Positions 19,780 through 51,974 of a DNA stretch of 64,000 nt are shown one piece after another (the stretch's first letter is position 1; the number at the start of each line of letters is the position of its first letter). The stretch comes from Actinomyces gerencseriae DSM 6844. Lineage in GTDB: Bacteria > Actinomycetota > Actinomycetes > Actinomycetales > Actinomycetaceae. The notes beneath the pieces were generated by a model. That model did no database searches. It worked only from the letters and a program-made list of their open reading frames with translations, and was not told the origin of the DNA. The DNA lies in NCBI RefSeq assembly GCF_000429265.1, contig NZ_KE386873.1, positions 1 through 64,000 on the forward strand. The letters run 5' to 3'. The position numbers and the translations under genes are program-made.

Positions 19780-19845
19780 CCGAGATCGGTTCAGTTCCGG
19801 CGCGAGATCGGTCGAGTTGCGCACCGAGATCGGTCGCACCCAGGA
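19780..19845 (+). repeat. 22-bp tandem repeat, three units (family C)
   Basis: The motif GAGATCGG recurs with AGATCGG starting at 19783, 19805 and 19827, an exact 22-bp period. The first unit is closest to the consensus, with GTTCAGTTCCG after the motif; the third is partial. The same unit forms arrays at 35776 and 50279. Here it lies between the 3' end of the DUF1700-like gene and the tRNA terminator. Confidence 0.75.
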
Positions 19846-22282: not shown

Positions 22283-24385
22283 TCACCTGTTGACCGTCGT
22301 GCCCTCCGAGGACCCCTTGGTGTCGATGTACTTGGCGAAGCAGTGATCGGCGTCGAACCCCTCGGCGCTGCACCAAGCGTTGGCCTCGTCGGCGCTGCCG
22401 TACGGAGTCGCGACGATCGTCACCCAGTACTGGCCACCGCTGTCGAAGACGGGCCATTCGTCGCTGTACAGAAGCTTGGCGTTGGAGTACTGCTGGCGCA
22501 GCTTGAGGAACTCCTGGAGCGTGGCGCGGTTGTCCCAGGTGATGCCGTCGGCGACCATCCCCGACTTCTTCGACGACAACTGCGGCACCCACTTGCCGGA
22601 GACGCCCTTCACCGAGGACTTGTCGTGATCGGCCTGCCAGCGCAGGGAATCCTTCGCCGCGGTCTCCTCCGAGGTGTTGTCCTTGCTCGTCGTGGCCGCC
22701 GTCACCGATGACGGTCTCGACGCGCCCGGGGTCACCGCGATCGGCGCGGAGCCGCGATCCGGTGTGCACGTCACGACGATGGTCGTGAGATCCATGTCAT
22801 CAGCCGTGCGATAGAAGTGGCCGCTTCCGAAGTGAAGCGTGAGCGTTGTCGCGGAGTCCGAGATCATCAGCGGAGAGCCGGAGAAATCGAAGTCCCCCGA
22901 GGCGACGACGGCGTCGGCCGGTCCGGTCCCGTCGGAGCGCGACGGTCCCCTCAGCTCGACGTGGTCGTCGGTTCCGCCCAGGACGTCGCCGCTGGGACAC
23001 GACGCGGTCACCTGCACCTCCACCTGGAGCTCCCCGTCCCCATTCCTGACGGAGGTCGGGGTGAAGTCCGGGGCGCTCCCGCACGCGGTCACGTAGTTCG
23101 TCGCCCCGGTGCTCGTGGGTTCGGCGGACGCCGACGCATCCTGCTTGCCATAGCGCGGCTTGTCCCGGTCGGCCCTATCGGAGCCGTTCACGGAGGTGGA
23201 ATCGCGATCGTTGAGATAACTCGTCACGTACCACCCGCCCACTCCGCCGACGATCAGCAGCACCAGGGCGACCAGAACGGCCACCGGCGCACGGGACCTC
23301 GAACGGCGGGGCTGCTCCGGACCCGGCTCGATCATCTGCCCCTGCACCGGCACGAGCGGGACGCCGGATCCGGACACGGCCCAGGGCGCGGTCCCCGCCG
23401 AGGGAACGGTCGGCGGCACCGCGGGCGGCGTGGCCCCCATCGGGAAGACCGGCCCGACCTGCGGCGCCCCGCCCACCGAGGGCCCTGCGGGTCCTGCGGG
23501 CACCGGGGCCGAGGGCGCCGAGGGCGCCAAGGGCATCGAGGGCATCGAGGGCATCATCGACGTTCCCGCGGCCGGGGCCGTCGAGGCAGCCGAGGCCGTA
23601 GACGCCGCCTCCGACTGCGATTCAGTCTCGGCTCCCGCGGACGCAGCCGCCGTCGGGGCCGCCGACGGCGCTGAAGGCGCTGAAGGCATGGTCTGCGTCT
23701 GCAATCGGTCAGAGCTCGAGGACGCCGCCCCCTCGGCCTCCTCGACTCCCTCCGCCCGAGGCTCAACGGCCGCCCGCACCTCAGCAGGTTCCTCATCCGC
23801 GGCGCCGTCGTCCTGAGACGCGGCCTCGTCCTGAGACGTGGCATCCTCGGCCCGCGACTCCTCGGCCCCGACCGGAGACTCCGCATCCTCCTGCCCCGCC
23901 CGCACCCCGGCAGGTTCCTCATCCGCGGCGCCGTCGTCCTGAGACGCGGCCTCAACCGTTCGGAGCGCCGACCCGCCGTGCGGCTCGTCGGGCTCCTGTG
24001 CCTCGGACATCTCCGCTGTCTCAGTCCCCTCCGCCGACGATTCGTGGGCAGCCTCCTGCGGCGCTCCCGACCGCGTCGTGCCGCCCCCATGCGAGTCGTC
24101 CTCCTCCCGCGACGCCTCGGGGTCCTGCGACTCCGCGTCGGCCCGCGCGTCGGTCGTCCGCGGCAGCACCGCGCCACGCGCCTCCAGCTCCGCGTGCACC
24201 GCCGGATCCGACAGCTTGGACAACCACACGAGCAGGTCGGGGTAGGACGAGGGATTGGAAGCCAGCGCGGCCCACAGGTCAGGTCTGCGCTCGGCGATGG
24301 CGGCCTGCAACGGGTAATCGTTCGTCTGAGCAGCGAGGGCCTCATCAGCCTGATCCGCCGCCCTGGCGAGCTGTTCAGGATCCAT
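22283..24385 (-). CDS. LRV-domain single-pass membrane protein
   Basis: A 700-aa protein. Residues 1-70 (DPEQLARAADQADEALAAQT, then AIAERRPDLWAALASNPSSY and LLVWLSKLSDPAV) form the leucine-rich-repeat-variant domain seen in many actinobacterial surface proteins. A long acidic, Ala/Pro-rich linker follows, containing two exact copies of EAASQDDGAADEEPA (44-bp identical DNA at 23784 and 23910, a 42-codon period). One membrane helix lies near 365-388, and a 310-residue extracellular C-terminal region contains paired Cys. ATG 24385 follows GGAAGG by eight bases. It may link cytoplasmic sensing to an outside domain, but the function is unknown. Confidence 0.8.
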   Translation of the reverse strand: MDPEQLARAADQADEALAAQTNDYPLQAAIAERRPDLWAALASNPSSYPDLLVWLSKLSDPAVHAELEARGAVLPRTTDARADAESQDPEASREEDDSHGGGTTRSGAPQEAAHESSAEGTETAEMSEAQEPDEPHGGSALRTVEAASQDDGAADEEPAGVRAGQEDAESPVGAEESRAEDATSQDEAASQDDGAADEEPAEVRAAVEPRAEGVEEAEGAASSSSDRLQTQTMPSAPSAPSAAPTAAASAGAETESQSEAASTASAASTAPAAGTSMMPSMPSMPLAPSAPSAPVPAGPAGPSVGGAPQVGPVFPMGATPPAVPPTVPSAGTAPWAVSGSGVPLVPVQGQMIEPGPEQPRRSRSRAPVAVLVALVLLIVGGVGGWYVTSYLNDRDSTSVNGSDRADRDKPRYGKQDASASAEPTSTGATNYVTACGSAPDFTPTSVRNGDGELQVEVQVTASCPSGDVLGGTDDHVELRGPSRSDGTGPADAVVASGDFDFSGSPLMISDSATTLTLHFGSGHFYRTADDMDLTTIVVTCTPDRGSAPIAVTPGASRPSSVTAATTSKDNTSEETAAKDSLRWQADHDKSSVKGVSGKWVPQLSSKKSGMVADGITWDNRATLQEFLKLRQQYSNAKLLYSDEWPVFDSGGQYWVTIVATPYGSADEANAWCSAEGFDADHCFAKYIDTKGSSEGTTVNR

Positions 24386-24590
24386 GTGGGAAACCTTCCA
24401 GGAGATCTCTAACACGCACTCTACAGCACGAGCCCGCGGCCCCCTCCACGGGTGCTCCGCCCGGATCACGCGTGGGACCCGAGACGCGCGGGTGGGGCTA
24501 GGACTGTGCGCACCCGCTGCAAGGCGAACAGGTCGGCCCCGAGACGGCGAGCGGGGTTTTGACGTATTCCTGCTCTGCTCTTCATGCACG

Positions 24591-24766
24591 GAGTCCTACG
24601 CGGTCGTACCCCTTCTCACGCGGTCGTACCCGAATGCGCCAGGTCGTACCTTAGAGGCTTCCCAACGTACGACCTGGCGCGGGAAGGTACGACCGCACGG
24701 CCCCGCGTACGACCGCACGGCCCCGCGTACGACCCGGCGCGAGAACGTACGACCGCGCCGCACCAC
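24591..24766. repeat. Bipartite 20-bp inverted repeat array A
   Basis: The 631-nt divergent gap 24386-25016 contains three octamers GGTCGTAC starting at 24602, 24622 and 24642, and five inverted octamers GTACGACC starting at 24667, 24687, 24707, 24727 and 24747. The period is exactly 20 bp on each side. Between the two arms is a 17-nt core (24650-24666, containing TTAGAGGCTTCCCAA). The same element, with the same 25-bp centre-to-arm step and a related core, occurs at 50586-50783. No gene is credible in the gap; apart from the array it holds only GC-rich DNA. Confidence 0.9.
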
Positions 24767-25016: not shown

Positions 25017-27008
25017 ATGCCAAGAGCCCTGTCACGAGTCGCCGGACGACTCGTCCCCGCCCCCGACGCGCCCCTGCCCCAGCCGCCGTCGTCCCGTGTC
25101 CGGGCGCTGCTGGGCTGGCTCACGCGCCGGGCCGCCGGGCCGCTGACGGTGGCGAGCCTGGCCGCCGTCGCCTCCAACACCATTCAGGCGATCGTGCCCG
25201 CCTTCCTGGGGGCGGCCCTGGACTCCGGTATCGAGAACGGGCTCAACGCGCGCCTGTGGTCGATCTGCCTGAGCCTGCTCCTCCTGTTCGTCGTCTACGC
25301 CATCGGGGACACCGCCCAGTCCTACGTCGGGATGCTCGCCTGGATGCGCACCAACTTCGATGTCACCCGGCTCGTGGGGCGCCAGGTCTCCGTCACCGGC
25401 GCCGATCTGCCCCACCAGGCGTCCACCGGCGAGGTCGCCTCGATCGTGGCCTCCGACGCGCAGTACATCGGCAACTTCTTCGAACGGCTCCCACCGCTCA
25501 TCGGCTCCGCCGTGTCCTTCGCGGTCGTGGCCGTGCTCATGGTCTCGGTATCCGTGCGCCTCGGCCTCATCGTGATCATCGGCATGCCCCTGGTCGCCTG
25601 GATCGTCACCCTGGTCATCAGGCCCCTCCAGAAGCGCCAGGCCGTTCAGCGCGAGGCGCAGTCCGAGGTCACCACCATCACCACCGACACGGTCGCGGGC
25701 CTGCGCATCCTGCGCGGCATCGGCGGCGAGGACGTCTTCGCCCGCCGCTACCGCGAGGCCTCCCAGGAGCTGCGCCGACGCGGAGTCGAGGTGGCCGGCA
25801 CGCAATCGGTGCTCATGAGCCTGCAGGTGCTCCTGCCGGGTCTGTTCGTCGCCGTCGTCGTGTGGGCCGCCGCCCGCCTGGCGATCACCGGAGGCATCAG
25901 CGCCGGCGAGCTCGTGACCTTCTACGGCTACACCGCCTACCTGTCGTGGCCCCTCATGGTCTTCTCCAGCTCGGTGCAGGACTACACGCGAGCCATGGTC
26001 GGGCTGCGGCGCCTGGGCAGGCTGCTCGACGTCGTCCCGGCCGCGGGCACCCCGGCCGAGCGCCTGAGCCTGGATCCCGCCGACGGCGCCACCAGGGCGG
26101 GCGAGATCGTCGATACCGCCTCCGGGGTGCGCTTCGCGCCGGGCCGTATGACCGCAGTGGTCTGCGCCGATCCCGACTCCTCCGCCGCCCTGGCCACCCG
26201 GCTCGGGCGCTTCGACGACGCCGACCCCGCGGTGACCCTGGACGGCCGACCGCTGACCGCCATGCCGCTGCGCGATGTGCGCGCCTCGATCGTGGTGGCC
26301 GGCGCCGCCGCCGAGCTGTTCACCGGCACACTGCGCGAGGCCCTCGACGTGCGCGGCGCGGCCGCGCCGGAACCCGTCGGCGTCGAAGCGCTCGTGGCCG
26401 CGGAGGCCGAGCGCGCGGGCATCGACGCCGTCGACCAGGACGTGCGCCCCGCCGCCGAGACCCTGCCCGGCGACGACCGGCTGCTCGCCGCCCTGAGGAC
26501 CGCCGACGCCCACGACGTCCTGACCTCGCTGGACCGGGGCCTGGCCGGCATGATCACCGAGAAGGGACGGTCCCTGTCCGGGGGCCAGCGCCAGCGGGTC
26601 GCCCTGGCGCGCGCCCTGCTGACCGAGGCCCCCGCCCTCGTGCTCATCGAGCCGACCAGCGCGCTGGACTCCCATACCGAGTCGCGCGTGGCCCGCCGCC
26701 TCCGCGCCGCGCGGCGGGGGCGCACGACCGTCGTCGTCACCGAGTCCCCCCTCGTGCTGGAGGCCTGCGACGAGATCGTCCTGCTGGACGACGACGGCGA
26801 GCGCGCGCGCTCCACCCACCGGGAGCTGCTGGCCCGCGCCCGCCGGGGCGACCCGGACGGGCTGGCCTACCGGGCCGTCGTGGCCCGGGCCTACGGCGAG
26901 GAGCCCCATGAGCAGGGCCCGGACGGCGACGGCGACGATGACGGCGACGATGGCGATGACGGCGCGAGCATCGCCGGGGCCGCTCCTCGGACGGCGGTGG
27001 AGGGCTGA
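25017..27008 (+). CDS. ABC exporter subunit with degenerate ATP site
   Basis: A 663-aa half-transporter with an N-terminal six-helix exporter domain (about 40-320) and a C-terminal nucleotide-binding domain. The NBD has lost Walker A (VVCADPDSS at about 381-389, with no GxGK), the Walker B Asp (LVLIEPTSALD, Ile544 where Asp is expected) and the H-loop His (Glu576). It keeps a perfect LSGGQ (520-524). A poly Asp/Gly tail ends the protein. It can work only as the partner of the next gene's product. ATG 25017 has no strong RBS. Its stop overlaps the next start (TGATG). The cargo of the pair is unknown; heterodimers of this class export peptides, lipids or drugs. Confidence 0.92.
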   Translation: MPRALSRVAGRLVPAPDAPLPQPPSSRVRALLGWLTRRAAGPLTVASLAAVASNTIQAIVPAFLGAALDSGIENGLNARLWSICLSLLLLFVVYAIGDTAQSYVGMLAWMRTNFDVTRLVGRQVSVTGADLPHQASTGEVASIVASDAQYIGNFFERLPPLIGSAVSFAVVAVLMVSVSVRLGLIVIIGMPLVAWIVTLVIRPLQKRQAVQREAQSEVTTITTDTVAGLRILRGIGGEDVFARRYREASQELRRRGVEVAGTQSVLMSLQVLLPGLFVAVVVWAAARLAITGGISAGELVTFYGYTAYLSWPLMVFSSSVQDYTRAMVGLRRLGRLLDVVPAAGTPAERLSLDPADGATRAGEIVDTASGVRFAPGRMTAVVCADPDSSAALATRLGRFDDADPAVTLDGRPLTAMPLRDVRASIVVAGAAAELFTGTLREALDVRGAAAPEPVGVEALVAAEAERAGIDAVDQDVRPAAETLPGDDRLLAALRTADAHDVLTSLDRGLAGMITEKGRSLSGGQRQRVALARALLTEAPALVLIEPTSALDSHTESRVARRLRAARRGRTTVVVTESPLVLEACDEIVLLDDDGERARSTHRELLARARRGDPDGLAYRAVVARAYGEEPHEQGPDGDGDDDGDDGDDGASIAGAAPRTAVEG

Positions 27009-35775: not shown

Positions 35776-35841
35776 CCGAGATCGGTCCGGTTCCGCACCG
35801 AGATCGGTCCGGTTCCGGTTCGAGATCGACTCGATCCAGCG
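35776..35841 (+). repeat. 22-bp tandem repeat, three units, upstream of purF
   Basis: AGATCGG (or AGATCGA in the last) starts at 35779, 35801 and 35823. Units read CCGAGATCGGTCCGGTTCCG with a 2-nt joint. Same orientation as the arrays at 19780 and 50279. Here it sits between purF (start 35719) and the regulator remnant at 35876, in the purF promoter region. Confidence 0.8.
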
Positions 35842-48775: not shown

Positions 48776-50128
<1,353 letters not shown>

Positions 50129-50278
50129 CTATTGGGATGATCCGCGCAGGAGCACGTCGTCGGGCAGGCGGTCTCCCGCGCCGAGGCCGAGCATCCCATC
50201 CCACCGGAAACTGAGACGAAACATCCCGATCGCTGGTTATCCCGGGGCCCGCGGGGGTTGCGCGGCCCGTCCCTCTCG

Positions 50279-50410
50279 CCGAGATCGGTCCGGTTCCGTG
50301 CCGAGATCGGTCCGGTTCCGTGCCGAGATCGGTTCAGTTCCGCACCGAGATCGGTCCGGTTCCGTGCCGAGATCGGTTCAGTTCCGCACCGAGATCGGTC
50401 CGAGGGCGCC
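50279..50410 (+). repeat. 22-bp tandem repeat, six units, upstream of gdhA
   Basis: AGATCGG starts at 50282, 50304, 50326, 50348, 50370 and 50392, an unbroken 22-bp period. Units alternate between GTCCGGTTCCG and GTTCAGTTCCG after the motif and are joined by TG or CA. Each contains the palindrome CCGA-GA-TCGG. This is the longest member of the family also seen at 19780 and 35776. Confidence 0.92.
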
Positions 50411-50585: not shown

Positions 50586-50783
50586 GATAGGCCTCGCAGT
50601 CGTAGGCAGTCCCGCGCGGTCGTACCCGGATGCGCGCGGTCGTACATTGCGTCGTGCGGTCGTACCTGAGCCCGCGCGGTCGTACGTTAGAAGCGCCCCA
50701 AAGTACGACCGCGAGTGAAAGGGTACGACCGTGCGGCCCCAGGGTACGACCACGCGGCCCCGAGTACGACCGCGCGAGCCCGA
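50586..50783. repeat. Bipartite 20-bp inverted repeat array B
   Basis: GGTCGTAC starts at 50618, 50638, 50658 and 50678, with a degenerate copy at 50598. Then comes a 17-nt core (50686-50702, containing TTAGAAGCGCCCCAA), then GTACGACC at 50703, 50723, 50744 and 50764. The period is 20 bp except one step of 21. The arm-to-arm step of 25 bp and the core match array A. The 1036-nt gap 50114-51149 between gdhA and the methyltransferase otherwise holds the six-unit 22-bp array and a near-palindromic stretch at about 50440-50500; I see no gene in it. Confidence 0.9.
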
Positions 50784-51149
50784 CGATCCGCGTCGACAGT
50801 CGACGGCGACACCGTCCCCCGCCACGACGGCACCTTTCTCACGACCCATCCCGCGAACCCATCGATGATCCTGGTCCGCGCGCCACCAATTAGCCCCGAC
50901 AGGAGATAAGGAGCTAAGAAGACCCGTGGAGCAAAGCGGGCTCTCCACTCGCCCCGGCCCGCCCACGCGAGAAGGACCACGGTGACGGTGAGGACCGCGG
51001 CCGGCGAAGGCTCGACCACGACCTCAGCACCCTGAGCACGAGATAAGGCCCGCGCACCACCAGCGGCAACCGCCCGCGCACCACCAGCGGCGCGACCAGG
51101 CTTCGGGACGAGCCCCGTCCAGGGCTCCCCGATCCGTATGCTCCCTCTC

Positions 51150-51974
51150 GTGACCGACGCTCCCGTTCCCGCAGGCGCACCGCGCTACACCCACGGGCAC
51201 TCCCCCGCCGTCCTCGCCAGCCACGCCCACCGCACCGCGGCCGACTCCGCCGCCCATCTCCTGCCCCGCCTCCGATCGGGCCTCGACCTGCTCGACGTCG
51301 GCTGCGGCCCGGCGACCATCACCGCCGATCTCGCCGAATCCGTCAGCCCCGGGCGCGTCGTCGCGCTCGACAGCGCGCCGGCCGCGCTCGAGGCGGCGCG
51401 GGCGACCCTTGAGGAGAGGGGACTGGCCGACGTCGTCGAGCTTGTCGACGGCGACGTGCACGCCCTGCCCTTCGCGGACGGCTCCTTCGACGTGGTCCAC
51501 GCCCACCAGGTGCTCCAGCACGTGGCCGCCCCGGTGGCCGCCCTGCGCGAGATGCGCCGGGTGACGCGTCCGGGCGGAATCGTGGCGGCGCGCGACTCCG
51601 TGTACTCGGCCAAGGCCTGGTACCCGCAGCCCCCCGCACTGGAGCGCTGGCGCCGGGTCTACATGGCGACGGCGCGGGCGAACGGCGGCGAGCCCGACGC
51701 CGGCAGCCATCTGCTGTCCTGGTTCCGCGCCGCGGGACTCGGCGACGCGGAGGCATCGGCGTCGACCTGGTGCTACGCGACGCCCGAGCTGCGCTCCTGG
51801 TGGGGCGGGACCTGGGCGGAGCGGTGCCTCTCCTCCTTCGGCCCGCGCGCAGTCGAACTGGGACTGGCGCGCCCGACCGAGCTGGAGGAGATGGCGATGG
51901 CCTGGCGGACGTGGGCCGCGGCGGACGACGGTTGGTACGTCGTCGTTCACGGCGAGGTCATCGCCCGCCGGTAG
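51150..51974 (+). CDS. Class I SAM-dependent methyltransferase
   Basis: A 274-aa methyltransferase related to UbiE/arsenite-type enzymes. LDLLDVGCGPATITADLAE (about 45-63) is motif I, VVALDSAPAALEAARATLEE the nucleoside loop, LPFADGSFDVVHAHQVLQHV motif II/III, and MRRVTRPGGIVAARDSVYS the following strand. The substrate is unknown. TATGCT (51137-51142) seven bases before GTG 51150 suggests a leaderless start; ATG 51138 is the alternative. It is transcribed divergently from gdhA across the repeat-rich gap. Confidence 0.85.
   Translation: MTDAPVPAGAPRYTHGHSPAVLASHAHRTAADSAAHLLPRLRSGLDLLDVGCGPATITADLAESVSPGRVVALDSAPAALEAARATLEERGLADVVELVDGDVHALPFADGSFDVVHAHQVLQHVAAPVAALREMRRVTRPGGIVAARDSVYSAKAWYPQPPALERWRRVYMATARANGGEPDAGSHLLSWFRAAGLGDAEASASTWCYATPELRSWWGGTWAERCLSSFGPRAVELGLARPTELEEMAMAWRTWAAADDGWYVVVHGEVIARR

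Follow-up and report, generated by a model that had tools for sequence, protein, structure and literature searches.

Two phased octamer arrays in divergent gaps

The window, that is, the whole stretch of 64,000 nucleotides of Actinomyces gerencseriae DSM 6844 that was analysed (contig NZ_KE386873.1, positions 1 to 64,000), carries two arrays of a short repeated word (Table 1). The first lies in a divergent gap between a minus-strand gene and an ABC transporter gene (starts at 24385, or possibly at an in-frame GTG at 24589, and at 25017), which bears out the long divergent intergenic setting given in the initial annotation. The exact phased layout described there, three octamers, a 17-nt core and five inverted octamers on a 20-bp period, was confirmed base by base, and TRF reported a period of 20 at 24687–24734, in the right arm. 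The statement that all octamers face nearly the same side of the helix holds only roughly, since at 10.5 bp per turn successive units drift by about 34 degrees. The single array described at the outset is thus real, but a second array, also in a divergent gap, and a genome-wide family had been missed. The second array contains one 21-bp step, and a weak outer unit starts at 50598. Exact octamers occur 21 times in the window, compared with about 1.4 expected under a first-order Markov model, and 16 of these 21 are located within the two arrays.

Other repeats were observed in the same stretch: short tandem repeats (23510–23872) within the gene left of the first array, and 22-bp tandem arrays of the CCGAGATCGGTCCGGTTCCGCA kind at 19780–19836, 35776–35828 and 50278–50402, which represent a second dispersed repeat family. 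A 12-mer related to the latter, CGACCGATCTCG, has 127 occurrences in 807 kb of the A. massiliensis genome (G018).

Table 1. Coordinates of the two arrays and their neighbouring genes in the window.
Feature	Position	Strand	Remarks
Left flanking gene, N-terminal LRV_2 repeat domain	22283..24385	-	start 24385; in-frame GTG 24589 also possible
First array, left arm: three GGTCGTAC octamers	24602..24649 (starts 24602, 24622, 24642)	+	20-bp period, pointing at the core
First array, 17-bp core CTTAGAGGCTTCCCAAC	24650..24666	.	diverged copy of the palindromic consensus CTTAGAG-N3-CTCTAAG
First array, right arm: five inverted octamers GTACGACC	24667..24754 (starts 24667, 24687, 24707, 24727, 24747)	-	20 bp apart
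Right flanking gene, ABC transporter, 663 aa	25017..27008	+	starts at 25017
Gene left of second array, Glu/Leu/Phe/Val dehydrogenase	48776..50113	-	left side of a divergent gap
Second array: core GTTAGAAGCGCCCCAAA between four GGTCGTAC and four inverted octamers	50618..50771	.	one step of 21 bp
Gene right of second array, class I methyltransferase	51138..51974	+	right side of a divergent gap

A genome-wide family with a fixed unit and a dyad core

The pattern octamer-N17-inverted octamer was found at 58 places in the source genome (G000; 3.42 Mb, 28 contigs) with at most one mismatch, 45 of them exact, while a reversed-pattern control gave no match in the same genome. Among the matches listed, 51 copies whose inner octamers carry no more than two mismatches were read from the fetched stretches (C5:127187 was left out); the number of arrays may be understated, because for seven of the 51 copies a contig end is no more than 600 bases away. 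In 49 copies (the other two, at contig ends, were left out), 276 of 323 outward steps measured 20 bp. The 276 units at this step define the array unit as CGCGC-GGTCGTAC-SY followed by five free bases: each octamer position shows one base in 92–100% of the units, a count that favours the octamer, as it excludes units deviating from it at more than three positions, the five preceding bases read CGCGC with 67–98% per position, and the two bases behind the octamer are mostly C/G and C/T. The middle five bases are near random, in line with the earlier remark that octamer and spacing are kept and the spacer is only partly conserved.

The core consensus of the family is the palindrome CTTAGAG-N3-CTCTAAG. 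No covariation was found in its seven pairs across 48 aligned copies (82.7% standard pairs compared with 82.8% after shuffling). Variable bases on opposite arms agreed below chance, both in class A copies, which are tied to ISL3-ended elements (0.037 against 0.298; none of 3000 permutations as low), and in the remaining class B copies (0.225 against 0.318; 24 of 3000 as low), the latter being the fairer figure because class A copies share descent. A pairing test between the core and its neighbouring spacers gave values at or above the observed one in 51 of 2000 permutations on the left and 510 of 2000 on the right. As a palindrome without covariation, the core dyad is kept as a sequence and not as a stem, and looks protein-read rather than like a selected hairpin.

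Gene context of the copies

None of the 51 copies read was located inside a gene called by our own home-made gene finder. Class B copies, as first classified, occupy 19 tandem, 8 convergent and 6 divergent gaps, with 3 at contig ends; this is near the background of 112 tandem, 32 convergent and 36 divergent gaps. No common theme was apparent among 83 flanking proteins, the commonest Pfam match being ABC_tran in five. One gene, coding for a 332-aa protein, is flanked on both sides by arrays in the source genome (C3:299930 and 301450; L179 3440–4435), and in G022 a gene for a 332-aa protein lies between short relatives of the array (1424515 and 1425724; L461 607–1605). A below-cut-off match to a restriction-endonuclease-like family was obtained for the G022 protein only, and none for the source-genome protein.

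Part of the family is tied to ISL3-like ends

An ISL3-like end (GGYTCTTCGTGT...) was found by flank score at 15 copies, and four more share only a linked right-hand module. These 19 of 51 copies form class A; the other 32, both window copies included, form class B. Both ends were present in 7 of 15 loci examined, about 290–860 bp apart. By eye, 8-bp duplications are exact in an A. oris group copy (GTTTTGAG) and in L149, carry one mismatch in L150, L146 and L160, and were not seen at L164. Five places in the source genome match ISL3 transposase domains; the best match has an internal stop, and the place at C3:35 kb has a similar end. By eye, ISL3-like ends were also seen close to the arrays of other species in L248, L258 and L269.

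At the window copies, ISL3 terminal inverted repeats were not detected (left and right scores 7.0–9.0; 95% of the null, 10.5), and insertion edges could not be defined, the intergenic DNA being too diverged for a comparison of target duplications. On its right flank, the first copy scores 15.2 against the ISL3-linked right-hand module (99% null, 13.0), a weak trace. In the first classification, class B flanks had scores close to those of random DNA (median 7.1 compared with 7.0, P = 0.02), which do not demonstrate a full decay of ISL3 ends around these arrays. Since six class B copies exceed the 99% null on one flank (the end in L148:10034, L151 and L155; the right module in window 24642, L158 and L186), some naked copies may, judging from these flank scores, be decayed class A copies. 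The initial annotation had named a decayed insertion sequence as grounds for giving up its reading; as 19 of the 51 copies belong with ISL3-ended elements, this applies to part of the family, and the first window copy has the weak trace of the linked module.

Insertion-sequence-like ends of other kinds were seen by eye near short relatives of the arrays. Directly at the core of half elements lie ends with GAGACAACACAG or its complement, as if the insertion sequence targeted the dyad (G022 near 1302559, 1604784 and 1871886, G047 near 137984; L459, L458, L457 and L469). Several short relatives in G047 and G022 share flanks with a TGTTGCGAAAG-type end, including G047 753299, one of the G047 copies far from dnaA.

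Octamers are kept at orthologous sites

For two class A copies, A. massiliensis carries an orthologue of each, and the members of a pair differ by whole units. Across the two pairs, differences affected 3 of 120 octamer bases (2.5%), 29 of 133 spacer bases (21.8%) and 92 of 758 bases outside; the octamers were thus constrained relative to both the spacers (P = 2e-6) and the outside (P = 7e-4), figures which rest on these two class A pairs and in which slippage may have paired non-orthologous units. The core, with 6 of 34 differences, was not better kept than its surroundings in these pairs.

Relatives share the plan with other words

The exact octamer-core pattern was found in 9 of 213 family genomes, with 45 places in the source genome and one or two in each of the eight others. 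A sequence-only model built on 48 copies matched in 23 of 49 genus genomes, many of the matches being shorter elements of about 70 bp with two plus two units of GKTCGTAC words (G022, G047 and G024; 22, 27 and 7 pairs at 20 bp, respectively). Five loci in G035 use GGACGTAC (16 pairs at 20 bp), with a core CTTAGA-N5-TCTAAG in L304, and L248, L256, L258 and L262 use ACGACCTC words (31 pairs at 20 bp). A loss of the 20-bp phase in related genomes, which the initial annotation had listed as evidence against itself, was thus not what we found: relatives show the 20-bp plan with other octamers, a result that is partly by construction because the search pattern and the model themselves contain this spacing. 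A scan of named genomes for the octamer returned at least 92 stretches, and the five from Actinomyces that were examined all carry arrays. The search of this genome and its relatives proposed in the initial annotation, with copy count, context and orientation, hence gave 58 places, intergenic placement and relatives with the same plan, but made the described layout one of many copies.

Sister species have few copies, with five loci in G018. The site of the first window copy holds a two-unit relic in G014 (E = 0.0014); nothing was found in G014 at the site of the second, and neither window site gave an array match in G018 or G033. The gaps at these sites are shorter or differently filled in the sister genomes. 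A small number of G000 copies agree in side and strand with elements of G022 or G047 in the same gap (13 pairings in all), which is suggestive at most. No sign of replication-polar orientation was seen for the short relatives in G047 (right, 12 plus and 5 minus; left, 10 plus and 3 minus; 17 of 64 loci that could not be oriented were left out of the test).

Copies concentrate in the origin half of some genomes

In three single-contig genomes, most merged loci fall in the half of the chromosome around dnaA (20 of 21 in G022, 27 of 30 in G047 and 8 of 9 in G024), and the locus centres lie 74, 33 and 126 kb from dnaA, respectively. The three genomes are not independent: flanks are shared with loci of G022 by 7 of 9 loci in G024, and with loci of G047 by 10 of 23 in G022. 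In G024, the hits led to the guess that dnaA was near the contig start, where it was then found, a weak test because contigs often start at dnaA. No clustering was seen in G035 (22 merged loci, R 0.13) or G013 (9 loci, R 0.21), for which rounded genome sizes were used and dnaA was not located.

For the source genome, an origin bias was seen through synteny with G018, from flank comparisons: 34 of 51 copies have flanks matching C1:300–1107 kb of G018 (807 kb, dnaA at 565 kb) compared with 12.1 expected (P = 1e-10; 29 of 45 with neighbours merged, P = 7.5e-9), where about five of the 34 were known to fall there before the stretch was chosen and some flank matches are weak and may be paralogous. 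Both classes contribute (13 of 19 class A and 21 of 32 class B copies). A confounder is that the origin half of G022 and G047 contains about twice as much intergenic DNA, with fractions of 0.28 compared with 0.15 and 0.33 compared with 0.14 in the two genomes (L345–L384; samples of 12 kb each, ten per half and genome). With this intergenic baseline, the bias gave P = 1.8e-3 in G022, 1e-2 in G047 and 5e-7 in the source genome.

The 807-kb stretch of G018 contains 50 loose matches to a palindrome of a different family, near-perfect and about 71 bp long (GTCGAGRTCGACNTTYTCGAACGAGATCGACGGTG with its mirror image; L407–L443 and L275–L278). Of the 34 mapped array sites, 7 have such a match within 500 bp (2.1 expected, P = 0.012), a possible sign of repeated use of the same gaps.

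Comparison with known systems

No description of a phased octamer array element was found in those portions of the literature that were searched. SlmA in E. coli and Noc in B. subtilis block division over the chromosome from dispersed sites (SBS and NBS), each a single short palindrome; the sites described here are likewise dispersed, whereas they are phased multi-unit arrays, and the likeness is drawn from the sites, the protein being a candidate. The parS consensus recognised by ParB is a palindrome, GTTTCACGTGAAAC, near oriC, and parS resembles the arrays in being origin-biased and palindromic. In G018, however, nine exact canonical parS form a separate cluster beside dnaA (C1:571,890–579,421; 7.5 kb, L420), which makes ParB unlikely; as the array consensus also differs from parS, ParB sites were rejected. 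A phage or plasmid origin was rejected as well, as blastn gave no match in phages or plasmids and a search of viral contigs with one exact pattern gave none either. Plasmid iterons are initiator-bound direct repeats of about 20 bp, whereas the arrays occupy tens of chromosomal places and have inverted halves. Class A copies resemble ISL3-family MITEs in their ISL3-like ends, several show duplications of 8 bp or nearly so, and they are not long enough to encode a complete ISL3 transposase; the window copies differ in showing no detected ends, with the weak linked-module trace at the first. Staphylococcus STAR elements have another unit sequence and are not known to be inverted around a dyad core. 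Like the arrays, they are interspersed intergenic direct repeats according to a passage in PMC3532100. REP/BIME elements are dispersed, regularly spaced repeats in opposite orientations, as are the arrays (a section of PMC2817692), but their conserved hairpin with compensatory change has no counterpart in the array core.

Candidate origin-domain sites

Taken together, the arrays are perhaps best read, with a probability of roughly 0.4, as host-maintained origin-domain sites for a candidate sequence-specific architectural or division-control protein. This reading is suggested by sites that are intergenic, free of orientation and of a functional theme among their neighbours, kept in octamer and phase, and origin-biased. 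From these features we infer the protein, its stepwise assembly and the role of the arrays. Two subunits would occupy the dyad core and further subunits would align outward from it, one per 20-bp unit and roughly along a single face of the helix, to form a symmetric nucleoprotein filament or cluster; a filament of this kind would wind gently owing to the drift per unit. As the sites are intergenic and mostly in the origin half, the complex would most likely mark, anchor or condense the origin domain, or block division over it. The symmetric assembly of a partition-like or nucleoid protein proposed in the initial annotation fits the constraint on octamer and spacing, the 20-bp arrays of relatives and a core without hairpin covariation, but ParB itself is unlikely to be that protein. 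Arguments against the origin-domain reading are that sister species have few copies, that two relatives show no clustering and that there are links to transposable ends.

These last points lead to an alternative that we regard as only slightly less probable, namely that the arrays are a REP- or MITE-like selfish repeat that spread in or with ISL3-type and other insertion-sequence ends, expanded by slippage in 20-bp steps and has no host function. The class A copies with their paired ends and mostly exact or one-mismatch duplications, the transposase domains at five places, the weak flank traces in six further copies and the insertion-sequence-like ends near arrays of other species and several short relatives all speak for it, as do the whole-unit differences between orthologous copies and the variable copy number among sister species. 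The origin bias would then reflect more intergenic space, of which the origin half indeed has more, and an older backbone. Against this, most class B flanks are like random DNA yet their octamers are near perfect, octamers are better kept than their surroundings at two fixed sites, and three related genomes show a clustering of copies about dnaA. That the arrays are operators of a transcription regulator controlling a large regulon appears improbable: a dyad core with phased half-sites is a usual operator plan and both window copies sit in divergent gaps, but class B gap orientation is near background, an origin bias would not be expected, and the 83 flanking proteins, which place the arrays upstream of no functional gene set, share no theme, so that the arrays are unlikely to be local operators. 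A structured RNA or DNA hairpin, such as a terminator, processing site or cruciform, seems very improbable and was rejected. The window copy does fold well as a single DNA strand (z = -5.6), but the inverted octamers alone would give such folding, the core does not covary, opposite spacers agree below chance, and the two Rfam matches in the region are both far below their gathering scores.

If the arrays are origin-domain sites, a wider and more speculative proposal is that Actinomyces has a system of its own, in which the candidate protein would assemble symmetrically on phased arrays of the origin half and do nucleoid-occlusion or macrodomain work, while the word drifts between species (GGTCGTAC, GTTCGTAC, GGACGTAC and perhaps other palindromes in the same gaps) and the two-turn spacing and mirror plan stay fixed; we regard this as rather doubtful at present. 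Actinobacteria are described in a passage of PMC7118173 as being without the canonical Z-ring regulators of E. coli. Should the family be selfish, it would still illustrate clearly how short words persist at fixed positions as the surrounding bases drift. As a countable, defined and origin-biased family of sites with a fixed phase, the arrays would offer a ready bait for a missing factor.
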